Part shown: positions 1 through 15,963 of the stretch, piece after piece
Layout of the letters: every line of letters starts with the position of its first letter
How positions within the stretch are numbered: the stretch's first letter is position 1
IMG/VR virus record: IMGVR_UViG_3300030101_003483
Location: 1 to 30,065 of that record
Length of the DNA: 30,065 nucleotides
Origin: a virus
Direction: 5' to 3' (one strand)
Notes under the pieces: generated by a model
Database searches by the model: none
What the model was told of the DNA's origin: nothing
What the model saw: the letters and a program-made list of their open reading frames with translations, nothing else
Made by a program: the position numbers and the translations under genes

Positions 1-87
1 TTGATCCTGGTTAATTAATTCTACATTTATAAATCTATTATATGATTTAATATAGTAAAATAATTTTTCTAGATTTGATTGATTCAT
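1..87 (-). CDS. Hypothetical protein, 5' part only (runs off the window)
   Basis: Leftward frame that starts with ATG at 87 and stays open for 29 codons to the window edge, so the C-terminus is missing. An AAAGG Shine-Dalgarno lies about 9 nt upstream. The visible N-terminus (MNQSNLEKLFYYIK) has no motif I recognise. It is the last visible gene of the leftward operon. Its 5' leader is the 3' product of the hammerhead ribozyme at 172-107, so its mRNA should begin with a 5'-hydroxyl end 26 nt before the start codon if the ribozyme cleaves. Confidence 0.6.
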   Translation of the reverse strand, partial: MNQSNLEKLFYYIKSYNRFINVELINQDQ

Positions 88-106
88 TTTAATTTACCTT
101 TCTTTT

Positions 107-172
107 ATTCTAAGACCTTGCACGTTTCGCAACGTTCAAAGTTTCGCTTTTATAAAGCTCATCAGTTAGAAT
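107..172 (-). ncRNA. Type I hammerhead self-cleaving ribozyme
   Basis: Read on the minus strand, every element of the hammerhead core is present in order. Stem I strand AUUCUAA (172-166) is followed by the core CUGAUGA (165-159). Stem II is GCUUU (158-154), loop AUA, AAAGC (150-146). GAAA follows at 145-142. Stem III is CUUUG (141-137) pairing with CAAGG (120-116), continuing past an A/G mismatch into ACGUU (135-131) and AACGU (126-122) under a GCGA tetraloop. Then come U115 and the cleavage-site C114, and the second stem I strand UUAGAAU (113-107), which pairs perfectly over 7 bp. The G-C pair closing stem II, the A-U pair beside the cleavage site and the UH rule are all satisfied. Stem I is open-ended, hence type I. 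Predicted cleavage is between 114 and 113. It sits 4 nt after the stop codon of the upstream gene. Confidence 0.93.
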
Positions 173-176
173 CTAT

Positions 177-350
177 TTATTTATTTTCATCGACTATTAC
201 AAAATATTCTCCTTGAACTTCTGCAATTTGCTTTTTACTTGTTTTTCTTCTCCTGCATAATTCTGCTAGATAATCATCATCATTTAAATTATTATGATAT
301 CTATAATTTATAGCATCAACTAACTCTTTATTATTTAAATGTTTAAACAT
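177..350 (-). CDS. Small hypothetical protein, 57 aa
   Basis: Leftward frame of 57 codons from ATG at 350 to TAA at 179-177. Its start overlaps the stop of the upstream gene (TAATG arrangement), so it is probably translated by coupling. The protein is acidic in the middle (NLNDDDY) and then basic (LCRRRKTSKKQ), and ends in a short hydrophobic beta-like stretch (EYFVIV). I recall similar small proteins in other phages but no function. The hammerhead ribozyme begins only 4 nt after its stop codon, so ribosomes terminating here would cover the first ribozyme strand. Confidence 0.7.
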   Translation of the reverse strand: MFKHLNNKELVDAINYRYHNNLNDDDYLAELCRRRKTSKKQIAEVQGEYFVIVDENK

Positions 351-481
351 TATATTAACCCCCTTTTTATTTTTTCTTTTTTTACTTTCTCAAAATGCTC
401 ATAATTCACGTATGAAATTCTATGAATAAATTTTCCACGTTCATCGAAATATGATATATTACTATATTTTAATCCTAGCAT
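350..481 (-). CDS. Small hypothetical protein, 43 aa
   Basis: Leftward frame of 43 codons from ATG at 481, with a strong Shine-Dalgarno (AAGGGGG) about 8 nt upstream, inside the end of the previous gene. It ends in a lysine-rich tail (EKVKKEKIKRG). No family is recognised. Its stop overlaps the start of the next gene by one base, which fits the compact leftward operon. The clean ribosome site and the stop-start overlaps at both ends are the main support. Confidence 0.6.
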   Translation of the reverse strand: MLGLKYSNISYFDERGKFIHRISYVNYEHFEKVKKEKIKRGLI

Positions 482-482
482 A

Positions 483-776
483 TTAAAACCCCCTTGAAAC
501 GTTATAAATTAAATCTTTTAATTGCTTAGTATTCATTAATTTAGTTTTAGAATTAGGCCTTGCTTGGCTTTGTTGTTTTGACGTGCTAACAGAATATTTA
601 TCAGTATTTTCAAACCAGGTATTTTTATATTTAACATACATAGGAAAATGAAAACCATACGAATAAACTATATATAATTTATCTTTTTTTATATGTTCAC
701 TAAATATATTACTTGCTTTAAATTCTATCTTATTATTAACCAATTCACTACATCTATTATTTGTTGTTTTAATCAT
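483..776 (-). CDS. Hypothetical protein, 97 aa
   Basis: Leftward frame of 97 codons. ATG at 776 is preceded by GGAG about 8 nt upstream, within the end of the upstream gene, which stops at 779. No domain is recognised. The middle is rich in aromatics and lysine (KDKLYIVYSYGFHFPMYVKYKN), looks like beta strands, and has no membrane segment. It is probably an accessory early protein. Confidence 0.6.
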   Translation of the reverse strand: MIKTTNNRCSELVNNKIEFKASNIFSEHIKKDKLYIVYSYGFHFPMYVKYKNTWFENTDKYSVSTSKQQSQARPNSKTKLMNTKQLKDLIYNVSRGF

Positions 777-778
777 TT

Positions 779-955
779 TTAATACTCCATTTCTTTTATT
801 TGTTCTAAATTTCTATAGCCAGTTCTTGAATATAAAATAGACTCTAATGATTCCAAGTTATATCCATTAATTGATGTTACTAGTCTTATTTCTTCCTCTG
901 TTGCTATATTAAAATCAATCAAATAATCATTTAATTCTTGCTCTTGTTTTTCCAT
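779..955 (-). CDS. Small hypothetical protein, 58 aa (first gene of leftward operon)
   Basis: Leftward frame of 58 codons, ATG at 955 to TAA at 781-779, with AGAGAGG about 6 nt before the start. The protein is acidic and probably helical; its core reads ATEEEIRLVTSINGYNLES, followed by YSRTGYRNLEQ. I recall close relatives of this pattern in small proteins of other phages, but no assigned function. It is the first gene after the leftward promoter with a consensus TTGACA, and is followed by the next gene after 2 nt. Confidence 0.7.
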   Translation of the reverse strand: MEKQEQELNDYLIDFNIATEEEIRLVTSINGYNLESLESILYSRTGYRNLEQIKEMEY

Positions 956-988
956 TGTTCAAACCTCTCTTTTAATTGTTACTATAAC

Positions 989-1015
989 TTAATACTATCT
1001 ATCTGTTATTGTCAA
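989..1015 (-). promoter_or_regulatory. Sigma-70-like promoter for the leftward operon
   Basis: On the minus strand a perfect -35 hexamer TTGACA (1015-1010) is followed 15 nt later by TATTAA (994-989), a fair -10 box. Transcription would start near 982, about 27 nt before the ATG at 955, leaving room for the AGAGAGG ribosome site. The 15-nt spacing is shorter than the ideal 17. The consensus -35 suggests use of host housekeeping sigma factor, as expected for early genes. Confidence 0.5.
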
Positions 1016-1336: not shown

Positions 1337-1416
1337 CAAAATAGGATTTAAAAGGTCAATTCGGTGCTACAAAAAAAAATTTGAAAATAAGGTCAAAGGT
1401 TGTATATATTAGAATA

Positions 1417-2073
1417 ATGAATAAGCTTGCCAAAATAAAAGAAAGACAAAAAGCTGCTGAAATGATGGCATTTAATCCTGAAATGAGCGTAAAAGAGATA
1501 GCTACAACGCTTAAAGTTGCCCCTACAACAGTACAACATTGGCGCAGAGACCCAAACTTCGTAGATATGGTTTATGAGCTTTATATGATTGAATTTGGAT
1601 CAGATATACCTGCTGTTTTAAAGTCTATGGTTAGGGAAGCAAAGGCAGGAAATGTCCAAGCTGCACGTTTAGTTTTAGAGCATAGTGGAAAACTTGTGAA
1701 GAATATAAACGTAACGATTGATAGTCCTTTTGAGAAGTTTTTAAAAGCAGATAAAACGCCTGTAGAATTTGTAGATGCAGAAGTACAAGATATTGTGGAA
1801 GATATTCCAGAGATGCCAGATATAGAGCTTCCAGAGCGTAAGATTGAAGATCAAGAAGAGCGCACCAGGACTGAATATACTACGATTAAAAGAGAAAAGC
1901 ATAAGCATAGGCGCAAGGTGAATAGGAATAGAATGTATCACTGGAAAAAGCGTGCTAAGGCTGTAGGTGTAGACGTTTTACCTAATGGCCGACCAACAAA
2001 AGCGCAAAAGCAAGAGTGGATAAATAAGGTTAAGACAGCAGAGCTAGAAGCAAAGAGAGCAAAAAAGAAATGA
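1417..2073 (+). CDS. terS: Terminase small subunit (putative)
   Basis: Encodes 218 aa from ATG at 1417; the same frame is open back to a TTG at 1381 that has no ribosome site, so I prefer the ATG. The N-terminal third is a helix-turn-helix (MSVKEIATTLKVAPTTVQHW), followed by a helical segment typical of small terminases (AKAGNVQAARLVLEHSGKL). A central acidic linker leads to a basic C-terminal tail rich in K and R. In this family the HTH binds the packaging site and the helical region oligomerises and delivers DNA to the large subunit. Its usual partner terL lies 3.3 kb downstream on the opposite strand (5399-6724), which is unusual. A weak AAAGG lies about 16 nt upstream, so the exact start is uncertain. 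Confidence 0.78.
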   Translation: MNKLAKIKERQKAAEMMAFNPEMSVKEIATTLKVAPTTVQHWRRDPNFVDMVYELYMIEFGSDIPAVLKSMVREAKAGNVQAARLVLEHSGKLVKNINVTIDSPFEKFLKADKTPVEFVDAEVQDIVEDIPEMPDIELPERKIEDQEERTRTEYTTIKREKHKHRRKVNRNRMYHWKKRAKAVGVDVLPNGRPTKAQKQEWINKVKTAELEAKRAKKK

Positions 2074-2309
2074 TAGACGTTGTAAGTGGTTACTTACTTT
2101 TTTTATTGATTATGCAGCCTGTAGAGGAAGTATATAATTGCAACCACCCTAATTTAGTTGGGACTCAAAGATATCACGCTCTATGTGACTGGGGAGAGGA
2201 TGATTTTTATACAAACATTAAGGGCAAAAAGATTTTAAGACCAAAAAGAAAGAAGGATAATCGCATTAAGTCATATTATAGAAAAAAATACTGGAGTGAG
2301 ATGCAATGA
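2070..2309 (+). CDS. Hypothetical protein, 79 aa, hydrophobic N-terminus
   Basis: Starts at ATG 2070, overlapping the terS stop by four bases (ATGA), so it is probably coupled to terS. Residues 5-17 (VSGYLLFLLIMQP) are hydrophobic, like a short membrane anchor or signal segment. The rest has two cysteines (YNCNHPN, HALCDWGEDD) and a basic C-terminus (KKILRPKRKK). No family is recognised. The start of the gene coincides with the terminator-like hairpin at 2082-2104. Confidence 0.6.
   Translation: MIDVVSGYLLFLLIMQPVEEVYNCNHPNLVGTQRYHALCDWGEDDFYTNIKGKKILRPKRKKDNRIKSYYRKKYWSEMQ
2082..2104 (+). terminator. Terminator-like hairpin after terS, second copy of the palindrome
   Basis: GTAAGT (2082-2087), GGTT loop, ACTTAC (2092-2097), then a run of seven T. 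This has the layout of an intrinsic terminator on the plus strand, though the 6-bp stem is AT-rich and weak. It lies just after the terS stop but inside the start of the 79-aa gene. It may therefore attenuate rather than end transcription, or act as an operator like its twin at 1076-1091. Confidence 0.35.
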
Positions 2310-2506
2310 ACGTCATGAAAAGTGGATACGATCTTTGGCAGGAAAAAAAGTACAAAAGTAGGTTCAAAAATGGTGGAATTGAGTGTAATGCCTGCAAGGA
2401 GATTAAAAAGCCAGAAGATTATAGTTCAAGTAAGAGTAAATGCAAAAAATGCTTAACAGCATACTATAAAAAGCGAAATAAAAGGGCAAATCAAAGTCTT
2501 TGGTAA
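2306..2506 (+). CDS. Small zinc-binding protein, 66 aa (putative)
   Basis: ATG at 2306 overlaps the previous stop by four bases. The protein carries two CxxC pairs, C27/C30 (CNAC) and C46/C49 (CKKC), about 16 residues apart, which should bind one zinc. It ends in a basic tail (AYYKKRNKRAN). This pattern resembles the zinc-binding part of phage HNH endonucleases, but the HNH catalytic part is absent, so it is not called a nuclease. A role in nucleic-acid binding is inferred. Confidence 0.62.
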   Translation: MNVMKSGYDLWQEKKYKSRFKNGGIECNACKEIKKPEDYSSSKSKCKKCLTAYYKKRNKRANQSLW

Positions 2507-2516
2507 AAATATAGGT

Positions 2517-2574
2517 AAGCAGAGATGCTTTCTAGTCGAAAAGAGATAAGGGGAGGGCAACCTTCCCAAGTCTC
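2517..2574 (+). promoter_or_regulatory. Two GNRA-capped hairpins in the leader of the 70-aa gene
   Basis: The 86-nt gap before the gene at 2593 holds two hairpins. AAGCA (2517-2521), GAGA loop, TGCTT (2526-2530) is 5 bp. GAGAT (2543-2547) pairs GTCTC (2570-2574), then an AA/AA internal loop, then seven pairs of 2550-2556 with 2561-2567 (one G-U) capped by GCAA. Both loops fit GNRA. No T-tract follows, so it is not an intrinsic terminator. A structured mRNA leader is the likeliest reading. Confidence 0.4.
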
Positions 2575-2592
2575 ATAAAAAAAGGAAAAACA

Positions 2593-2805
2593 ATGCCGAA
2601 GTTAACAAATAAAGAAAGAGATCAGCAATTAAGATGGCTTACAGGCCAAATCCAGAATATGAACAGCTTATTTGCAAGTTATGTAGAGTGGAGAGGTTTA
2701 TCTGCTGATTTCCAGAAGCATATAATCGATTTAAACGAAAAACTAAAGAAAAAGGCTGAAAATGATACAAGCGCTGATAATAAAGTGGATTCTAAAGAAG
2801 GGTAG
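2593..2805 (+). CDS. Hypothetical protein, 70 aa, helical
   Basis: ATG at 2593 preceded by an A-rich stretch with AAAGGA about 9 nt upstream. The protein is mostly helical with charged termini; its middle reads LTGQIQNMNSLFASYVEW and the C-terminus is lysine- and aspartate-rich. No family is recognised. Its last 44 nt overlap the next gene, which starts at 2762 in another frame. Confidence 0.6.
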   Translation: MPKLTNKERDQQLRWLTGQIQNMNSLFASYVEWRGLSADFQKHIIDLNEKLKKKAENDTSADNKVDSKEG

Positions 2806-2914
2806 TATTGAGTTTTTATTGTTTGTAGGTGAATTAATTGTAAAAACTACTAAATCTAAGAAAGATGATAAGATGTGGAAAGAGATTAAACCTATTATTG
2901 AAAAATATAAGTAA
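2762..2914 (+). CDS. Hypothetical protein, 50 aa, hydrophobic N-terminal helix
   Basis: Frame of 50 codons from ATG at 2762, inside the 3' end of the previous gene, to TAA at 2914. Residues 3-25 are a hydrophobic helix broken by KWILKKG and followed by SIEFLLFVGELIV. The C-terminal half is very basic (KTTKSKKDDKMWKEIKP). The shape resembles small phage membrane or holin-accessory proteins, but that is inference. Its stop lies directly against the stop of the convergent MuF-like gene (2915), with no terminator between them. Confidence 0.55.
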   Translation: MIQALIIKWILKKGSIEFLLFVGELIVKTTKSKKDDKMWKEIKPIIEKYK

Positions 2915-3454
2915 TTATCTACTAGATTCTATCCCACCAACGCCCTGAACTATAACTTTGTCGTCAATAGGTATATCTTCTGGTATAAGTTGGCAATAGC
3001 AGTTCTCTTTACAGACTGAAAACCCACTTGCAGGTAAACCAGCAGCTTGCCAGTTCTCCCAGGTATCGACTTGACCAATCCTAGCAGCGCAATCGCCACA
3101 TATTTTAGGGCTTCCAACAGAAACCCAACGCATCATTACGTTATCCCCATAAATATTGTCTTGTCCGACCCTGAAACCTTGCATAATACCTCCAACAATT
3201 CCACGCTTAATGGTATTTCTGAACTCTCCAAAAATTCGTCCTCCAGTCCTAAGATCATCGGACAGAATTTGGATAATTGCTCTATCTCCGACTCCTGATC
3301 CTCTGAGAACAGCAATCTCTCGTTCAATTCTCGAAGCAAATACATCAATTCCATAAGCAAGTCCGAGTGCGACCCAGAGAAGGGTGTCTTCGTCTTGTTG
3401 TTCGATTTCTTCGGCATCTAAAAATTCCTCCAGGGTTTCGTATTGTTCAGCCAT
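2915..3454 (-). CDS. MuF-like minor head protein (C-terminal type)
   Basis: 179 aa. The C-terminal 70 residues match the phage Mu gpF/SPP1 gp7 minor head family: RWVSVGSPKICGDC, then a WENWQAAGLPASG segment, then a cysteine cluster. Cysteines 119, 122, 148, 152 and 154 form the usual probable metal site. The N-terminal half is acidic and then helical. Family members are carried in the prohead near the portal and some enter the host with DNA; it is shorter than typical full-length MuF proteins (about 300 aa or more). It is the last gene of the inverted terL-portal block. The start at 3454 overlaps the preceding stop (TAATG). Confidence 0.75.
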   Translation of the reverse strand: MAEQYETLEEFLDAEEIEQQDEDTLLWVALGLAYGIDVFASRIEREIAVLRGSGVGDRAIIQILSDDLRTGGRIFGEFRNTIKRGIVGGIMQGFRVGQDNIYGDNVMMRWVSVGSPKICGDCAARIGQVDTWENWQAAGLPASGFSVCKENCYCQLIPEDIPIDDKVIVQGVGGIESSR

Positions 3455-3960
3455 TATTGAGACCTTTTCATCATCGCTCTATTCATTTTATTAACTAAAT
3501 CATCCTGTATCTTTTCTAAGCCTTCCTTGTCTCTTTTTAAATCATCAGCTCCTGCTATGAATTTTCTAGAGAAAACATTTCTATTTTCAGGCGTTTTAAA
3601 CCCTTTATGATGTTCAACACCATACTCAAGCATTTCAATTCCATCTTTAGTCGGCTTTATAGAGTTTAATAGGTTTCCAGTATAATGTAGTGGCGTAGTT
3701 CTACTTGTAGGAGTTAAAGAATTCATACCTTGACCTGGGCTATCATAAGAATTAAAGGTTGATAACCCTCTTCTTCTAAGTTCTAATGTGTTCTGAGATA
3801 AACCTCTAAGTTTACCCTCAGTTATATTTCTTTTAGTCATTTGAGCAAGTCCATCAATAACAGACTCATTGCTCTTACCAAGTATGTCATCCATCTGTCT
3901 AGATAACTTAGAAAATCTAAAGTTAGAAGTAAATGTTACTTTATATAATGGCTTCGCCAA
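3454..3960 (-). CDS. Head-tail joining / virion morphogenesis protein (Mu gpG or HK97 gp10-like)
   Basis: 168 aa starting at a TTG at 3960 with GGAG six bases upstream, inside the end of the previous gene. The middle contains the pattern PLHYTGNLLNSIK and then GVEHHKGFKTP, typical of small phage connector or tail-completion proteins in which a conserved L..TG.L..S segment is followed by a beta region. It also has an N-terminal helical part with QMTKRNITEGKLRGLSQNT. I infer a role at the head-tail junction. Mu gpG and HK97 gp10 families are both possible; a detailed profile search would choose. Confidence 0.6.
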   Translation of the reverse strand: MAKPLYKVTFTSNFRFSKLSRQMDDILGKSNESVIDGLAQMTKRNITEGKLRGLSQNTLELRRRGLSTFNSYDSPGQGMNSLTPTSRTTPLHYTGNLLNSIKPTKDGIEMLEYGVEHHKGFKTPENRNVFSRKFIAGADDLKRDKEGLEKIQDDLVNKMNRAMMKRSQ

Positions 3961-4174
3961 ATTCTTCTCCTAATTTTCGTGCTTCTTTAATTCTATCTAT
4001 ATTCTGAAGTAATATTTTGTTAGCTACCTTCTCAGCGAACGCTTTTGGGTCTACTATAACTTCGCTAATATCTCCATCAATGTCAATATCTATTTTATGA
4101 AGGTCTTTGATTTTGCTGACGTATTCTCTCAAAAATTGATTGTTGCTCGTTTTCTTGCTTGTTTGCTCTGACAA
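3941..4174 (-). CDS. Hypothetical protein, 77 aa, between portal and connector
   Basis: Frame of 77 codons with an upstream TTG at 4174; no ATG exists in frame, so the start is uncertain and a second TTG at 4135 is an alternative. It overlaps the portal 3' end by up to 80 nt and the next gene by 20 nt. The C-terminal two thirds look structured (DPKAFAEKVANKILLQNID, then KEARKLGEEFGEAI), mainly helical and acidic. No family is recognised. The position suggests a head-assembly accessory factor. Confidence 0.5.
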   Translation of the reverse strand: MSEQTSKKTSNNQFLREYVSKIKDLHKIDIDIDGDISEVIVDPKAFAEKVANKILLQNIDRIKEARKLGEEFGEAII

Positions 4175-5399
4175 TTTCTCTAGCCTCCTCTATAGATAAA
4201 TCTTTGTTTTGTTTTACAAGTAGCTCTGGCTGTGTAGTAAGATTATTTTGTAGTGCATGATTATCAAGTAGAATCTGATCCTGTACTGTCTTAGGATATT
4301 CAGGTTCAATAAAATCAAGCTTTAGTTCGTTTGGCAAATTAATACCATTATAACCTGCAATCGCACGCTCAACTTGATAGAACTCATGCTCATACATTCT
4401 AAACAACTCTATATCATCCTGATAATCTTCAAATCGTTCTAAGTCTTTTATTTTGAGTGCTATACCTGATGGAACTTCGCCACCATCTTGAGCAAACTGA
4501 ACATATAAGTGATTGTTTTGCGCTACAAGGTCTACCTGAAACTTAACACTTTCTATTACAGACTGAATATCACCCTGTGGAGCAGCAATACCAAAAGTAG
4601 AACCTTCAGGAAGGTCAAGTATTTGATCACTACCAGTTCTTTTCATACCTTTATCGCTATATACTCCAGTAACAAATGGTTGTCCAAACATTTGGAATCT
4701 AAGACCTAGCTGCAATTCAGTCATTGTAATATTAACTTGCTCATTACAATCAACAATATCATTAGCCCCTTCTACAAAGAAAGAGTCTATCTGATTTTCT
4801 CTATGTGTAAATACAAAAGGAATGACTCCATATCCATGCTCAAATTCATTAATTATATTTCCATCCTCGTCATAATGCACATGAACATTTGCATCCCAAT
4901 ACGCATATTCTAGTTTACGAGTATCATATACTTCGTTCACATTATGCAAAATAGGATATGTGATTGCAGTAGGAATAAATGGATTATCTTCCATGTGGAC
5001 ATCAAAGTAATAAACAGGCCTATAATCAAAATGTGGCATATCGCCATCCATAAAAATAACTTGAGTTGCAATCGTACCAACAAGCCTTGTCATCTTCTCA
5101 ATATGTTTCATACGAGCATCTTTTTTTACAGTAAGTTCATCGTATCGTGGATTCACATTACGATTTGCGCCAACATTGTATATTCTTGACATCTTATTAA
5201 TAAATCTTTTAGTAAAATTCGCATTATATAGAGGAATTTCTCTAAACGCATCAGCATCAAAATAGTCATCGATGTATTTTTGTGTCTCTGTTCCAGAATA
5301 ATAATCTATAAGTTTATATATCTCTCTTCGCCTTGCTTGTGCTTGACTAAGCTTATATTCCTTTATAGAATCTTGTATTATTTGTTCAACTGTACTCAT
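4095..5399 (-). CDS. Portal protein
   Basis: 434 aa, the usual size for SPP1/HK97-type portals. The N-terminus (YKLIDYYSGTE, then NFTKRFINKMSRIYNVGANR) and the C-terminal pattern are typical: a helical region (FEDYQDDIELFRMYEHEFYQ), an EPEYPKTVQDQ segment, then TQPELLVKQNKDLSIEEA and a polar tail. The portal forms the dodecameric ring at one capsid vertex through which terminase pumps DNA. Its ATG at 5399 overlaps the terL stop (TAATG), and the canonical terL-portal order is kept although the block is inverted. Confidence 0.88.
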   Translation of the reverse strand: MSTVEQIIQDSIKEYKLSQAQARRREIYKLIDYYSGTETQKYIDDYFDADAFREIPLYNANFTKRFINKMSRIYNVGANRNVNPRYDELTVKKDARMKHIEKMTRLVGTIATQVIFMDGDMPHFDYRPVYYFDVHMEDNPFIPTAITYPILHNVNEVYDTRKLEYAYWDANVHVHYDEDGNIINEFEHGYGVIPFVFTHRENQIDSFFVEGANDIVDCNEQVNITMTELQLGLRFQMFGQPFVTGVYSDKGMKRTGSDQILDLPEGSTFGIAAPQGDIQSVIESVKFQVDLVAQNNHLYVQFAQDGGEVPSGIALKIKDLERFEDYQDDIELFRMYEHEFYQVERAIAGYNGINLPNELKLDFIEPEYPKTVQDQILLDNHALQNNLTTQPELLVKQNKDLSIEEAREIVRANKQENEQQSIFERIRQQNQRPS

Positions 5400-6724
5400 T
5401 ATCTATTCCTCATTATTATTTTATTTCGTTTTATTGGAAATTGGTTTATAAAAAAATATCTTAACATATCACATCCATGGTCATGGAATCCATCTTTTAG
5501 TGGGTCAGGTTTTAAGTCTTTATTTTCAACAGCCTCTGGATAACGATAGTTTTCAAGATCTTGAGCCAGTCCCACGCATTTATTATCCAGATGCAAATAT
5601 CTATTATTATTAGCATTTTCAATAAATCCTCTAACGTGAGTAATTCCAGAAGCAATATTCCTTGAAGCTTTATCTCTTACAGACCTTACGTTAATGCCAT
5701 TTCTCCTAAAGATTTCGATATCTCCCAGTCCTGATTGTCCTTGAGCTTGCATACCTGCTGGGTCACCAAAGTATGCTATTGGATTATATCCTTTACTTTT
5801 AATTTTATTAATAAGTTCATCTGTCTTTATATTTTTCTCATGTATGATCTCATCAATTACATTTATATGCCACTCGCCATTTATTCTATGAGTTTGAAAC
5901 CAGCCCACTGCTGGCATCCTATATCCAAAGTCAATAGAACAGAAAGTTGAATAATTAGGATTATAAGGAAAATGACCAACGTCTTTATTTCTATCAAAGG
6001 GATAAACCTTTCCTTCAAACGATGTAAATGCTGAACCAAACTCTTGGTCAAACATCTCCTTAGACATATTCCTTTTTCTCTCAATAAGAAAAGGGTCATC
6101 CATTCCTTTAGGAAACGCATATTGATTTTCCCACGATGGAGCTTGATGCGATTCCCATAATTTATCAGACTGACCTAACAAGAAAAGGTCATATATCCAA
6201 TTAAATCCTTCTGGGGTAGTAATAAAAATACATTTACTATCTTTCTTATCTGCTAGGGTAGGAGATAAATACATCTCCCATATTTTCCTTTTAACCTTAG
6301 CTGCCTCGTCAATAACAAGTAGATCAAGACCAGCGCCCACTAAAGAATCTGGGTTATCTGCTGATTTTGCTTCTACTACGCTACCCCACTTGAAGCGTAT
6401 ATATCGTTCTTTCTCTGAGGCCTTTTCTATATCATTAGCTTTACCAACGACCATTCGCTTCCAAACTTCTCTAAACATAATGTCTGCTTTATCGTAGGAT
6501 AGTCCAACAAGCCATACTCTCTTATCAGGCTGGGATGCGTAATACGTTGCCTCCATAGCTGCTGCTGTTGACTTCCCAAACCTACGACCACATACCATGA
6601 CAAAAAACCTTGCATCTTCCTTCGATGGAAAGTGCAACTTGACTTGACCATTATGAGGCTTATACCCCATAAAATCAAACCATTTATCCTTAAATTTTTT
6701 TAGATTGTTATTAAATGTTTGCAT
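5399..6724 (-). CDS. terL: Terminase large subunit
   Basis: 441 aa. The ATPase domain has Walker A GRRFGKST at 46-53, Walker B LDLLVIDEAA with D139/E140, and coupling motif TTPEG at 169-173. The RNase H-like nuclease domain has acidic residues at D265 (SIDFG), D321 (YFGDPAG) and D415/D419 (HDHGCDM). It translocates DNA through the portal and cuts the concatemer. The start is the only in-frame ATG near the leftward promoter, and no Shine-Dalgarno is visible in the about 12-nt leader. It lies on the strand opposite terS and is divergent from the scaffold gene. All catalytic positions are intact. Confidence 0.95.
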   Translation of the reverse strand: MQTFNNNLKKFKDKWFDFMGYKPHNGQVKLHFPSKEDARFFVMVCGRRFGKSTAAAMEATYYASQPDKRVWLVGLSYDKADIMFREVWKRMVVGKANDIEKASEKERYIRFKWGSVVEAKSADNPDSLVGAGLDLLVIDEAAKVKRKIWEMYLSPTLADKKDSKCIFITTPEGFNWIYDLFLLGQSDKLWESHQAPSWENQYAFPKGMDDPFLIERKRNMSKEMFDQEFGSAFTSFEGKVYPFDRNKDVGHFPYNPNYSTFCSIDFGYRMPAVGWFQTHRINGEWHINVIDEIIHEKNIKTDELINKIKSKGYNPIAYFGDPAGMQAQGQSGLGDIEIFRRNGINVRSVRDKASRNIASGITHVRGFIENANNNRYLHLDNKCVGLAQDLENYRYPEAVENKDLKPDPLKDGFHDHGCDMLRYFFINQFPIKRNKIIMRNR

Positions 6725-6735
6725 TTATAACCCAA

Positions 6736-6747
6736 CATAATATAACT
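6736..6747 (-). promoter_or_regulatory. Probable leftward promoter of the terL-portal block
   Basis: The divergent gap 6725-6812 separates terL and scaffold. On the minus strand it contains AGTTATATTATG with TATATT as a -10 candidate (6744-6739), placing a start about 6-8 nt downstream, just before terL. The identical 12-mer occurs upstream of the right-hand minus operon at 30040-30051. No good -35 is visible. For the rightward genes, TTGTGT near 6775 and TATATA near 6799 is a weak candidate pair. Confidence 0.4.
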
Positions 6748-6812
6748 TACGCAATAGGAAACATACAAGATATTGTGTGTTTGCAATCAAAAAAACTATA
6801 TATGGAGGCAGT

Positions 6813-7334
6813 ATGTCACAAGAAAATAGTCAAGTAGAAAGCACAACAGTAAGTGAGCAACCTACAGTAGTAGCCGATGATAATTCGACCGATGTCAGAG
6901 GATTGATACTTGAAAATAAAAAGTATCGTCAAAGGTCGCAGGAAGCTGAATCACGATTAGAGCAACTTGAGAAGAAGCTTGCTAGTGCAGAAGAAGCTAA
7001 ACTAAAAGAGAAAGAAGACTTTAGAGCATTATATGAAAAAGTATCTTCTGAAAATGAAAGTTTATCTGCAAATGCACAGAAGTGGAACAAGTATGAGGAT
7101 AATCGAAGAAACACTTTATTGGAATCAGCCCCTGAGGAAGAGAGAGAAAGATTAGCAGGACTTGATCTTGACACTCTTGAATATGTAACAAGTAAAATTA
7201 ATAATCAAAAGCCTTCAAACGCTGAACATATTCCTGGCAGAACAAGAAACATTGAAATTAATAAACCTTGGTCTAAAATGAACGAAGAAGAAAAGCGTGC
7301 ATATTACGCTCAAGCTTCAGCTAAAAAGGCTTAA
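6813..7334 (+). CDS. Scaffolding protein (putative)
   Basis: 173 aa from ATG at 6813, chosen because GGAGG lies 4 nt upstream; the frame extends upstream to a TTG at 6777 without a ribosome site. The protein is acidic and lacks cysteine. A disordered N-terminus is followed by a coiled coil at about residues 30-90 (ENKKYRQRSQEAESRLEQLE and following), then a Q/N-rich linker and a basic C-terminus. This layout and the position directly before the major capsid gene are typical of phage scaffolds, whose C-terminus docks on the coat protein. No protease gene is seen nearby. Confidence 0.78.
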   Translation: MSQENSQVESTTVSEQPTVVADDNSTDVRGLILENKKYRQRSQEAESRLEQLEKKLASAEEAKLKEKEDFRALYEKVSSENESLSANAQKWNKYEDNRRNTLLESAPEEERERLAGLDLDTLEYVTSKINNQKPSNAEHIPGRTRNIEINKPWSKMNEEEKRAYYAQASAKKA

Positions 7335-7352
7335 ATAGAAAAGAGGTAAAAA

Positions 7353-8432
7353 ATGGCATTAGCCCCTACAAATAACGTAGCTCTCGCTGGTGGTTTAACT
7401 GATGAGGGTGTAGATTCTACTTTACAAAACTTTGTCCCAGAAATCTGGGGTGCTTCAATTATGGACTACATGGAAAAAAGTCTTGTTTTCGGAGCATTAG
7501 CAAATGACTTATCAGGATTAGTTGCAAATGGTGGTGATAAAATTCATCTTCCAAAGCACACTGAAATAACAGCATCTGACACTTATGGTGGATCATCTGT
7601 TGCAGTTGAAACTCTAATCGATTCTCCTTTAGCTTTTAATGATTCAACTGCTGCTGAGGGTGAATATACTCTTGATATTAATCAAGCAATTCACAGTGCA
7701 ATAGCAATTACTGACGTAGCACAAATGCAGTCAAGCTACGATGTAATGAATATTTATACTGAAAAGCTTGGTTATGCTCTTGCTAAAAAAGTTGACCAGT
7801 ACTTAGCGCAAAAATTATTTGAATCAGTAGCATTTAACTATAAGAATGGTACAGATGATGGCGCTCAAGCTGGTAATACAATTATACTTAATGACACTAC
7901 AGATACAAGAACAATGACACAAACTGGTATTACAAATATGTTGAGTGCAATTTACTCTAATGACTCAAGCATAGAGGATTTTGTTATGGTTCTTACTCCA
8001 GGTGTATACGCAAGTTTATTTAGCTTAGATGATTTTGTTAGATTTGATGGCGTAGGAAATTCATTCGGAAGTGAAGTTCCACTTGTGAGTGGATTTGTTG
8101 GAAAGCTTGGTGGCGTTGAAGTTATCGTTTCAAATAACTTCGTTCACTATGGTGCAGCTTCTACATCTTTAGCAGCATCAGCAACACCAGTGGGTAACTT
8201 CAGTGCAAATGGTGTAGACGATGAGCATGAGAATCTACTAGGGTTCTTAATACATAAAGATGCAATGCACATCGCATACTCAAGAGGTATGAAAGCTAGA
8301 GTACAAAGTGATTATCACCTATCAACATTATCAACAAGATTTGTTGCTGATAGTGTTTATGGATGCTTAATTACTGGTAATACAACAGCAGGAAACCAAA
8401 GAGTATTTGCTTTAATAGACAAACTATCATAA
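7353..8432 (+). CDS. Major capsid protein (HK97-fold, putative)
   Basis: 359 aa from ATG at 7353 with AGAGG about 6 nt upstream. The N-terminus has FVPEIWGASIMDYMEKSLVF, the usual coat-protein entry segment. A central region with TITDVAQMQSS-like helix and YALAKKVDQYLA forms the long-helix part, and the C-terminus has LIHKDAMHIAYSRG and VADSVYGCLI. These match the pattern of HK97-fold coat proteins of T7/P22-like marine phages as I recall them. Position after the scaffold supports the call. No N-terminal pro-domain is visible, consistent with a separate scaffold. Confidence 0.88.
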   Translation: MALAPTNNVALAGGLTDEGVDSTLQNFVPEIWGASIMDYMEKSLVFGALANDLSGLVANGGDKIHLPKHTEITASDTYGGSSVAVETLIDSPLAFNDSTAAEGEYTLDINQAIHSAIAITDVAQMQSSYDVMNIYTEKLGYALAKKVDQYLAQKLFESVAFNYKNGTDDGAQAGNTIILNDTTDTRTMTQTGITNMLSAIYSNDSSIEDFVMVLTPGVYASLFSLDDFVRFDGVGNSFGSEVPLVSGFVGKLGGVEVIVSNNFVHYGAASTSLAASATPVGNFSANGVDDEHENLLGFLIHKDAMHIAYSRGMKARVQSDYHLSTLSTRFVADSVYGCLITGNTTAGNQRVFALIDKLS

Positions 8433-8440
8433 AGATAATA

Positions 8441-8466
8441 TTAAGGGGAGAGAAATCTCCCCTTAA
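8441..8466. terminator. Strong stem-loop after the major capsid gene
   Basis: TTAAGGGGAGA (8441-8451), GAAA tetraloop, TCTCCCCTTAA (8456-8466): a perfect 11-bp stem with a GNRA loop 9 nt after the capsid stop codon. Only three T follow on the plus strand, so it is at best a partial intrinsic terminator. It may reduce expression of downstream genes relative to capsid or protect the mRNA 3' end. Confidence 0.6.
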
Positions 8467-8486
8467 TTTCTAGGAGAATATATACA

Positions 8487-8642
8487 ATGATAAAAATGAC
8501 AAGCCCAAATAGAAAAGGTTTATTTAAATTTTTCAAAGAAGAGGATATAGAAGCTGCAAAAGCCAATGGATGGGTAGAAGCAGTTAAACCAAAGGCTGTG
8601 AAAAAATCAAAGCCCAAAAAAGAAGATAAGGGAGATAAATAA
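8487..8642 (+). CDS. Small lysine-rich protein, 51 aa
   Basis: Frame from ATG at 8487 with AGGAG 10 nt upstream to a TAA whose last base is the A of the next ATG. The N-terminus MIKMTSPNRKGLFKFF is followed by a short helical pattern (EEDIEAAKANGWVEA) and then a tail of mostly K, P, D. The FKEEDIEAAKANGW part resembles short motifs found in small phage head genes next to the coat protein. Function is unknown; a role in head assembly is inferred from position. Confidence 0.65.
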   Translation: MIKMTSPNRKGLFKFFKEEDIEAAKANGWVEAVKPKAVKKSKPKKEDKGDK

Positions 8643-9148
8643 TGGCCTTAACAGATTTAGCAGGAAGAACGAGCCAGGCAAAACTCAACTCAATGGCAGT
8701 TGATCTTATTGATGTAACATTAACAAGGACAGGAACAAGTGTAGCTGATGGTCAAGTTATCTCAGAATCAATAGAAATACCAAATGCAGTTGCAGTTACA
8801 GGTGGATCTGCAATAATTCAATCTATAATTTTACATAATAGGGATGATGATGTTGAATCACCTGCGATTGAATTATTATTTGAGCCTAATGATATGTCAG
8901 CAGGCACTATGGCAGGTATATCAGATGATGAAAGTATTACAATACAAGGAGCAGTAACGATATCTAATTGGAGTACCTTGCAACCAAGTGCTAATGAAAT
9001 AGCATTTAAGAGTAATATTGGAATGGTAGTAAAGGCAGCATCAGATAGCAGGTCAATATATGTTACAGCTATCAATAGAAGTGGAGCAGCTTACACTCCA
9101 AGTTCAGTTAATAGTTTGACAGCTAAAATTGGCATTGTAAAAGATTAA
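8642..9148 (+). CDS. Probable virion structural protein, 168 aa
   Basis: ATG at 8642 with GGGAG 5 nt upstream. The protein is rich in S, T, A, I and V with predicted beta strands throughout (for example GGSAIIQSIILHNRDDD, DSRSIYVTAINRSG). It has no cysteine and no membrane segment. This composition and its place right after the coat gene fit a head decoration or similar surface protein, but I recognise no named family. Its stop overlaps the next start (TAATG). Confidence 0.6.
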   Translation: MALTDLAGRTSQAKLNSMAVDLIDVTLTRTGTSVADGQVISESIEIPNAVAVTGGSAIIQSIILHNRDDDVESPAIELLFEPNDMSAGTMAGISDDESITIQGAVTISNWSTLQPSANEIAFKSNIGMVVKAASDSRSIYVTAINRSGAAYTPSSVNSLTAKIGIVKD

Positions 9149-10248
9149 TGTTTCCAACACGTAGAATAACAACAACTGGTGGCGATGTATTTAGAGATGA
9201 GTTTTCTTTAGCGTTTGATGGTAGTAATGATTATGTAGAAATCTCTGATGTTCCTTCATTTAATTATAATGTCAATTCTATATCTATTTGGGTTAATCCT
9301 GCTGCAGAATCAGGTTCAATGAGCTTGTTTGATTATAGAGATGCAAATAATGATGGTGTACATATTTTTTTAGGAGATGGTGATGTAACCTATCAAATTG
9401 ATAATACAGATGGTCATTATGACACTAAATTACCTTTAAATCAATGGTCACATATTCTTTGCACAAATGATGGAAGCACAAGCACTATTTATGTGAATGG
9501 TGTTTCAGTTGAAACAGCAGATACATCAGGAGAAACAATAAATGTATCAGGCTCTGCTGTTATAAGAATTGGAGCAAGAAGTCATACTTCTTCAAATAAT
9601 TTTTTTCAAGGCAATATATCAGAAGTAGCTATATACGACAAAGCATTGTCAGCATCAGAAGCAAAAACATTATACAATGGCAGAGAGCCTTATAACCACA
9701 AAGAAGGTGTATGCTCATCTAACTTACAAGGTTGGTGGCGTATGGGTGATGGGGTTTTAGATGGTCATAATCTTATAGCCGACCAAAATAATTTAACATT
9801 AGGCCCAAATCTATGGACACTTGGAGATGTAGGCCCTGATAGTGCAGGAGGTAGTGATCCTACTGTTTCGGCAAGTATGGACATATCAACCAACAACCTA
9901 AATGTAGGTGATGTTTTAAAACTTACTGCAGTTATTGAGGATAGTAATGGTGGCAGAATTATAGCACCTGACAAGGGGGCAAGTTCAAATGGGGTTCAAA
10001 TGGTTGCAAATACATCTACACCACAAGGCACAAATTCTCACACATCCAATGGAAGAATTGAAAGATATGTATATGTAGAAGATAATTCATCAACTAAAAA
10101 ATTTAAAATAAGAACTGATTATGATGGGATAAATGGTACAGCTAATGATACAACGCAAAAAATGACTAATATTGAAGTTCGCAAATTAAGTCAAGCAGGT
10201 GTAATGACAAGTATGAGTGCAAATGCTATCAAAGGAGATACGCCTTAA
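9148..10248 (+). CDS. LamG/concanavalin-like domain virion protein
   Basis: 366 aa. Residues about 10-180 form a LamG-like jelly-roll: SLAFDGSNDYVEISD at the start, then SISIWVNP, then PLNQWSHILCTNDGSTSTIYVNGV, and finally EVAIYDKALSASEAKTLYNG. GWWRMGD after it is typical of the family's C-terminal edge. The rest is beta-rich with no recognised domain. LamG domains bind carbohydrate or protein, so a capsid- or tail-displayed adhesin for host or particle surfaces is likely. Expression is coupled to the genes on both sides through TAATG overlaps. Confidence 0.8.
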   Translation: MFPTRRITTTGGDVFRDEFSLAFDGSNDYVEISDVPSFNYNVNSISIWVNPAAESGSMSLFDYRDANNDGVHIFLGDGDVTYQIDNTDGHYDTKLPLNQWSHILCTNDGSTSTIYVNGVSVETADTSGETINVSGSAVIRIGARSHTSSNNFFQGNISEVAIYDKALSASEAKTLYNGREPYNHKEGVCSSNLQGWWRMGDGVLDGHNLIADQNNLTLGPNLWTLGDVGPDSAGGSDPTVSASMDISTNNLNVGDVLKLTAVIEDSNGGRIIAPDKGASSNGVQMVANTSTPQGTNSHTSNGRIERYVYVEDNSSTKKFKIRTDYDGINGTANDTTQKMTNIEVRKLSQAGVMTSMSANAIKGDTP

Positions 10249-14406: not shown

Positions 14407-15963
14407 ATGACAAAGTATGCAATACAAAACCCTGGGGCGAGTGGAAGTTCTGTATCAACTACTAGAAAATCAAGATCTCCAAAATCTACAACAACAAAAT
14501 CTTTAACTTTTAGCGATACAACTAACGACTTACTATTAGATATAAGTAAAGATGCAAGCGCTTCATCCCAAAAATCTGGAGATGTTTCAATGGTTAGAGT
14601 ATCCAATACTGGAAAGATTCCAGCAATTGCAATATTTGGATTTCAGCAATACACAGACGAAGATACTATAGGAAATGAAAACTTTTTACATTTCTTATTA
14701 AGCCCAGGCGAAGTTATAAGTATGCCAGCAACTAGGGCTATTATGACTGATAATGACACAGATTTATATGAAGGGGATGTCATAACATCACAAGCACCAA
14801 ATTCTAATTTAAGAGTATTTAGTGGCGCAACATTAGCAGAAAATGTCGAAGATTCTGATACAGAATTTAATGTTAGCGACTCAGACTTTTTTAGAGTTGG
14901 GGATTGCATACAGATTGGTATAGATGATTCAACAACAACAAGAAAAGAAGTAATGGAAGTTACTGCAATAGGAACAAATAATTTGACTGTAAGAAGAGGA
15001 TTGTATGGAACTAGTGTAGCAGACAAGGATAATCAAACAGATGGTACTAATGGAGCAGTAAGTGGAGCTAGGATTTATTTTCCAATATTTAATAAGTTTC
15101 ATGATTATGATAAATATAGTGTAGTCCAAACAGATAACCTTGGAAGATATATGTCTACTAACTTTTTTGGGTATGGAAGAACAGCAACAGCATTATGTGG
15201 AATAACACCAGGTTCAGTTGCAATACAGTTTTATACAAAAGGATTTCAAAAACTTGGTTTATCTGATGTTACCTCAAATACTCCTACAGGATTAACAGCT
15301 TCTACTACATATTTTTTAACTATAGCAGCAGATGGTGGTTCAGCCTTAGAAATTAGCTTTACTACAGATGCAACTAATGGTAATTTTGGTGGAGAGAATG
15401 GACTTGTACAAAAAATACAAGATGCTTTAGATGAAGCATATTATACAGCAGGTAATTTATTTGAGAAAAAAGTAAACGTATTGATATCAGGTGGAGATGT
15501 GGTTTTTGAATCACAAAGCAAGCTTTCAACCTCAGCAATAGCATTAACAGCAGGAACAAGTGGATCTGGGGCATCAGTTAGATTTTTAGCTCAAGCTAAT
15601 GGTAGAATACCAGCACTTGCAAATATTCCAAGCGCAGTAGATGCAAGGCTAGAGCAAGATACATTTTTTGATCCAATAACATTCGCATCAAACATTAAAG
15701 ATATATTTATAACAGATGATGGCTTTGGTAGACTTATGTACCAGGGTAGGGCTGTAGGTGGAATTAATTATGAATCTGGAGCAATAAATTGGCAAATATC
15801 AAGTTGTCCAAATGCAGAATTTGTAGTTAGCGCATTATCAAACTCACCACTTAGTGGTAAGCAAGATGCAACAGATGCAGCAAAAGTAAATTCATTAATT
15901 GAAGTATTAGGAAACACTCCACAGCAAAAAGGTGGAGCAACATTAAAAGTAGAAACATTTTAA
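14407..15963 (+). CDS. Large virion structural protein, 518 aa
   Basis: ATG at 14407 with AAGGA about 6 nt upstream. N-terminus is S/T/K-rich and probably disordered. A central part has EVMEVTAIGTNNLTVRRGLYG, the beta pattern seen in phage baseplate or head-fibre proteins. The C-terminal end is a globular domain (DIFITDDGFGRLMYQGRA). I recall related proteins in uncultured marine phages, described only as structural. It directly precedes the basic-protein cluster. Confidence 0.6.
   Translation: MTKYAIQNPGASGSSVSTTRKSRSPKSTTTKSLTFSDTTNDLLLDISKDASASSQKSGDVSMVRVSNTGKIPAIAIFGFQQYTDEDTIGNENFLHFLLSPGEVISMPATRAIMTDNDTDLYEGDVITSQAPNSNLRVFSGATLAENVEDSDTEFNVSDSDFFRVGDCIQIGIDDSTTTRKEVMEVTAIGTNNLTVRRGLYGTSVADKDNQTDGTNGAVSGARIYFPIFNKFHDYDKYSVVQTDNLGRYMSTNFFGYGRTATALCGITPGSVAIQFYTKGFQKLGLSDVTSNTPTGLTASTTYFLTIAADGGSALEISFTTDATNGNFGGENGLVQKIQDALDEAYYTAGNLFEKKVNVLISGGDVVFESQSKLSTSAIALTAGTSGSGASVRFLAQANGRIPALANIPSAVDARLEQDTFFDPITFASNIKDIFITDDGFGRLMYQGRAVGGINYESGAINWQISSCPNAEFVVSALSNSPLSGKQDATDAAKVNSLIEVLGNTPQQKGGATLKVETF

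Follow-up and report, generated by a model that had tools for sequence, protein, structure and literature searches.

What is a self-cleaving RNA doing between two small genes of a phage operon? The window, which is the entire virus record of 30,065 bases, encodes a type I hammerhead ribozyme (HHR) close to its left end, at the junction between a 57-amino-acid gene and a second small gene cut off by the end of the record. We give a probability of about 0.7 to the reading that it is a functional type I HHR acting as a gene-junction processing element, dividing a polycistronic phage mRNA. The evidence consists of structure, conservation and placement, and from these we infer cleavage, the resulting mRNA ends and a benefit. 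The relevant features are as follows.

107-172, minus strand: type I HHR (sequence, fold and an independent covariance model, E = 4.6e-12).
172-166 with 113-107, minus strand: stem I, an open stem of 7 bp (AUUCUAA with UUAGAAU; sequence).
165-159, minus strand: core CUGAUGA (sequence).
158-154 with 150-146, minus strand: stem II hairpin GCUUU-AUA-AAAGC, 5 bp (sequence).
145-142, minus strand: GAAA, with G145 as G12 (sequence).
141-131 with 126-116, minus strand: stem III hairpin, GCGA loop at 130-127 (sequence and fold).
Between C114 and U113, minus strand: predicted cleavage site in a GUC triplet, with U115-C114 before the cleavage point.
88-113, minus strand: 26-nt leader of the downstream mRNA after predicted cleavage (sequence; same length in relatives).
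97-105, minus strand: likely ribosome-binding site AAAGAAAGG, inside the leader (sequence).
1-87, minus strand: downstream small gene, truncated by the record end, 29 codons visible (open reading frame).
177-350, minus strand: upstream 57-amino-acid gene of unknown function (open reading frame).
350-481, 483-776 and 779-955, minus strand: three further small genes of the leftward operon (open reading frames).

Along the minus strand the elements follow in the order AUUCUAA-CUGAUGA-GCUUUAUAAAAGC-GAAA-CUUUGAACGUUGCGAAACGUGCAAGG-UC/UUAGAAU. The invariant CUGANGA and GAAA core and the UH at the cleavage site are present, and three stems surround the core, with stem I open and stems II and III closed by loops, as given by the minimum-energy fold and by compensatory changes in orthologues. 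The first-pass annotation had called a type I hammerhead with all its elements on the minus strand, and sequence and predicted fold bear this out: stem II (GCUUU/AAAGC), GAAA, the GCGA loop, the UC site and the 7-bp stem I were all located there. The predicted cleavage site at C114 and its polarity also hold, and the next gene starts at 87, which leaves 113-88 as the 26-nt leader originally proposed. The further claim that the element matches its family exactly is right for core and topology and too strong otherwise: stem III has an A136·G121 mismatch and one U·G pair among its 11 positions, Rfam thresholds are not reached and the viral subgroup has a 6-bp stem I. Folding of 104-175 gives precisely the hammerhead as the minimum-energy structure (-16.2 kcal/mol, z = -2.45), an energy matched by 4 of 200 shuffles. 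In longer contexts, with 60-150 nt of upstream sequence, the probability of the HHR secondary structure is 0.04-0.35 and other folds compete, which leaves room for control by translation.

No Rfam family matched the window at gathering thresholds. At relaxed limits the best match was RF02275 Hammerhead_HH9 (23.9 bits against a threshold of 52, E = 0.0039), and the RF03152 RAGATH-1 hammerhead scored 22.5 bits (E = 0.61). An RF00163 scan of the record gave no match either, a result of little weight since the control was also without a match. Only 2 of dozens of sister HHRs (14 related loci) pass Rfam gathering, so the miss of the window is read as a limit of sensitivity; a gathering score is a recognition threshold, not a structural feature. 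A covariance model (R1) built from 81 related hammerheads, with the window and the orthologous loci L037, L063 and L128 left out, finds the window HHR at 51.2 bits (E = 4.6e-12 in 119,574 bases). The covariance search proposed at first pass was answered in two ways: the Rfam score fell below threshold, formally the outcome named there as a refutation, and the independent model recovered the element. Rfam thresholds miss most of this viral HHR subgroup, and its abundance in viruses is thus underestimated.

A type I descriptor matched once in the window, versus one weaker match in 60 shuffled windows; with the R1 score, this upholds the initial judgement that a chance match is unlikely. That the element is a chance match or a dead relic, for which its standing below all Rfam gathering scores and the degenerate copies in relatives described below could be cited, is exceedingly improbable in view of the R1 match, the compensatory changes in orthologues and the intact core and cleavage site; chance is excluded because of the orthologues. 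The element at 107-172 is almost certainly a real hammerhead under selection.

Related phages (L037, L063 and L128) carry the same ribozyme in the corresponding leftward operon; terminase small subunit identity to that of the window is 75% in L063 and 95% in L128. Stem II of L128 is fully replaced yet paired (GAGAU/AUCUC), and stem I of L063 differs in its letters and is still paired (GCUUAA/UUAAGC), with the core unchanged in both. The genes flanking these orthologous ribozymes differ. No correspondence is recognisable among the immediate upstream genes, and the gene that adjoins the ribozyme on its downstream side in L037 is separated from it in L128 by one additional gene. The 57-amino-acid gene has 7 homologues among viral contigs; those in L001 and L005 adjoin no HHR, so this gene does not need the ribozyme, and the one in L002 lies two genes downstream of another hammerhead. 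Homologues of the 43-amino-acid gene (350-481) are found in L037 and L128. Different neighbours around orthologous ribozymes, and a core sequence shared by many HHRs of one genome, would suit a module boundary at the DNA or RNA level, the ribozyme being a short recombination homology around which small genes are exchanged, with cleavage secondary or lost. Recombination would favour conserved letters, not conserved pairs, whereas the stems vary but keep pairing around an invariant core, and we regard this explanation as improbable.

The ribozyme is patchily distributed. Of the close relatives that reach far enough, defined by at least 65% identity of the terminase small subunit, L063, L128 and L202 have an HHR and L132 does not; most distant relatives are without one, L183 excepted. 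Two intact HHRs and one degenerate HHR are present in L063. Hammerheads with a mismatched first stem II pair, at 2922-2980 (minus strand) in L063 and 15714-15774 (plus strand) in L202, are perhaps decaying copies; apart from these, matches to a relaxed descriptor were mostly non-canonical noise and were discarded. Imperfect tandem repeats of GATTATAAATTTAACTTGGATT also lie between two small operon genes of L063, at about 1350-1500 (minus strand).

Placement at gene junctions is stereotyped. Across 212 unique HHRs, from contigs related to varying degrees so that the junctions are not independent events, the last base of the upstream stop codon typically falls on the first ribozyme base (median +1, IQR 0-6) and the cleavage site lies 29 nt before the next start codon (IQR 27-36; 26 in the window), the commonest leader being 27 nt. 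In the window, the stop codon of the 57-amino-acid gene is 4 nt ahead of stem I. The median gap is 76 nt at HHR junctions versus 3 nt at other same-strand junctions nearby. The location between genes noted in the window is shared by most of the 212, and the operon context holds as well, orthologues lying in the same operon and other HHRs at junctions elsewhere.

In most HHRs no more than about 12 nt separate the stop codon from the core; for 77 of 189 (about 40%) the stop is formed by UAA in stem I or UGA in the core, a share partly forced by the search pattern, and the rest are mostly just upstream. In L128, too, the upstream stop codon is inside stem I. A terminating ribosome would in such cases sit over the core and the 5' strand of stem I, and the ribozyme could be a translation-sensing switch that cuts only when translation of the upstream gene is poor, so that mRNA integrity is coupled to translation. 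This spacing also follows from the compactness of phage genomes, however, and no conserved alternative on/off fold was seen as far as examined; a switch of this kind is unlikely, if less so than the module boundary.

Repeated ribozymes follow one orientation. There are 62 loci with at least two HHRs, none with HHRs on both strands, at a median spacing of 505 nt; arrays of 2-9 are found in many of 116 viral stretches, always on one strand, and in the gene maps of L041, L043, L051 and L012 ribozymes alternate with blocks of one to several genes. In L041, nine hammerheads in 7.3 kb (2233-9483, minus strand) divide blocks of one to several small genes. One-strand arrays could also free gene fragments for circularisation or joining, in the manner of retrozymes and viroid-like RNAs, and the ends left by hammerheads, 5'-OH and cyclic phosphate, suit RtcB-type ligation. 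The window shows a single copy, with the record ending just after it, and such products were sought and not found by Perreault et al. (PMC3088659), so that cutting followed by ligation is very improbable here.

Division of the message at the gene junction is probably the purpose of the HHR. A leftward polycistronic mRNA would be made from the divergent region near 1000 and would fold and cut itself between C114 and U113 after transcription of the 3' strand of stem I. By hammerhead chemistry, the 3' end of the upstream message would be a hairpin shortly after the stop codon, bearing a 2',3'-cyclic phosphate; the downstream message would start with a 26-nt 5'-hydroxyl leader carrying the ribosome-binding site. 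The two halves could then be translated and degraded independently, with the hairpin guarding one 3' end and the other piece free of the 5' monophosphate that stimulates RNase E. A 5'-OH end avoids this monophosphate stimulation, although the enzyme also has a direct route of entry (PMC2948425, PMC4191395).

The proposed function has relatives among known systems. The early mRNA of phage T7 is cut by RNase III between adjacent genes of a polycistronic message, and the cuts predicted here likewise fall between adjacent genes of polycistronic phage mRNA; unlike T7 processing, which uses a host protein, the hammerhead needs no protein, and the ends it produces are a 5'-OH and a 2',3'-cyclic phosphate. 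HHR clusters have been described in prophages of Clostridium scindens, Azorhizobium caulinodans and Agrobacterium tumefaciens, and HHRs also in phage PaP3; the three prophage clusters cleave in vitro, that of A. tumefaciens also in E. coli, and processing into single-gene or operon-length mRNAs was proposed for them in 2011 (Perreault et al. 2011, PMC3088659). As in those clusters (PMC3088659), the HHRs here lie between genes of a polycistronic phage transcript, cluster on the sense strand and have changing neighbours. They differ in belonging to an uncultured phage clade, in their measured stop-codon placement and 27-29-nt leader, in the one copy in the window and in that cleavage is predicted. 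One paper on phage theta ribozymes does not mention hammerheads, and the role of prokaryotic and phage hammerheads has been listed as an open question (PMC6155905). The kind of ribozyme is already known; new are this example, the measured layout of stop codon, ribozyme and leader, the subgroup signature, the gene turnover around orthologues and the pelagiphage HHRs.

The wider subgroup was defined by a search pattern of the exact core plus three stem I pairs, with matches in 116 viral-contig stretches and in 17 stretches from cellular genomes, the latter mostly Legionella. In 126 unique matches, the 8 stem pairs not fixed by the pattern were formed in 90-100%, versus 40-71% with permuted partners, and at position 7 of stem I pairing dropped to 17%. 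This pattern-only test was used instead of pair counts on alignment A1, which were set aside as partly circular because its rows had been picked for pairing. In a non-redundant set of 135 sequences, 118 have a 6-bp stem I; A occupies the position immediately 5' to stem I in 90% and the two positions 3' to it in 74% and 72%, and the usual loop II is UNAAU or GUAA. This signature suggests a putative tertiary contact between loop II and the A's flanking stem I. In the window, loop II (UAUAA) is unlike the usual UNAAU, and A172 is present but paired with U107. Core and topology are those of RF00163 Hammerhead_1 and RF02275 Hammerhead_HH9, from which the viral subgroup differs in its 6-bp open stem I, the lack of a closing internal loop and an often long stem III. 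The hammerhead core is also shared with RF03152 RAGATH-1, whose model expects an upstream hairpin and a minimal stem II, unlike the normal 5-bp stem II of the window.

Many Legionella and Legionellaceae genomes (L204-L208, L210, L213-L216 and L218-L220) carry hammerheads that fit the same pattern but have a longer loop on stem II. Related Legionella hammerheads upstream of ardA were reportedly noted in 2011.

With odds that we put a little short of even, the viral HHR subgroup may constitute dedicated gene punctuation: a widespread unit of stop codon, ribozyme, leader of about 27 nt and start codon that persists as neighbouring small genes turn over, yields gene-sized mRNAs without a host nuclease and has a distinct open-ended contact (6-bp stem I, flanking unpaired A's, loop II UNAAU or GUAA).

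HHR DNA gave partial matches only against annotated phages. By the model, those to PHIKZ166.1 of the phiKZ group and to Bacteroides phage BT638P1 were not hammerheads, and that to Pelagivirus S35C6 was one. In four T7-like pelagiphages, model R1 found type I hammerheads (E = 1.7e-7 to 1.8e-11) located within or close to the early region.

2948-3008: type I hammerhead in HTVC019P (L224).
2297-2359: type I hammerhead in HTVC022P (L225).
1105-1164: type I hammerhead in HTVC109P (L229).
5996-6056 and 8144-8203: type I hammerheads in Pelagivirus S35C6 (L223).

Rfam at gathering gave none in seven pelagiphage stretches. In the literature searched, with subscription papers mostly outside it and earlier reports therefore possible, no report of HHRs in cultured HTVC019P, HTVC022P or HTVC109P was found. 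Stereotyped placement, gene turnover and these cultured examples make the mRNA-processing idea directly testable, by 5'-OH end mapping during infection.

The remainder of the leftward operon is tightly packed, with the genes at 350-481, 483-776 and 779-955 spaced at most 2 nt apart. None of the four small operon genes received a function from Pfam or PHROGs, 483-776 matching PHROGs of unknown function, and BLAST of window positions 1-1000 against annotated phages gave no match. No tRNAs were found. A promoter scan returned sites no more numerous than in shuffles, and for this reason no promoter is claimed. The terminase subunits lie apart on opposite strands (small, 1381-2073, plus; large, 5399-6724, minus), and the large subunit has at most about 32% identity to any listed annotated phage. 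The mostly non-coding stretch at 1034-1400, which separates the leftward operon from the terminase small subunit gene, is 82-85% identical in L124 and L127 and could be a packaging or control site.
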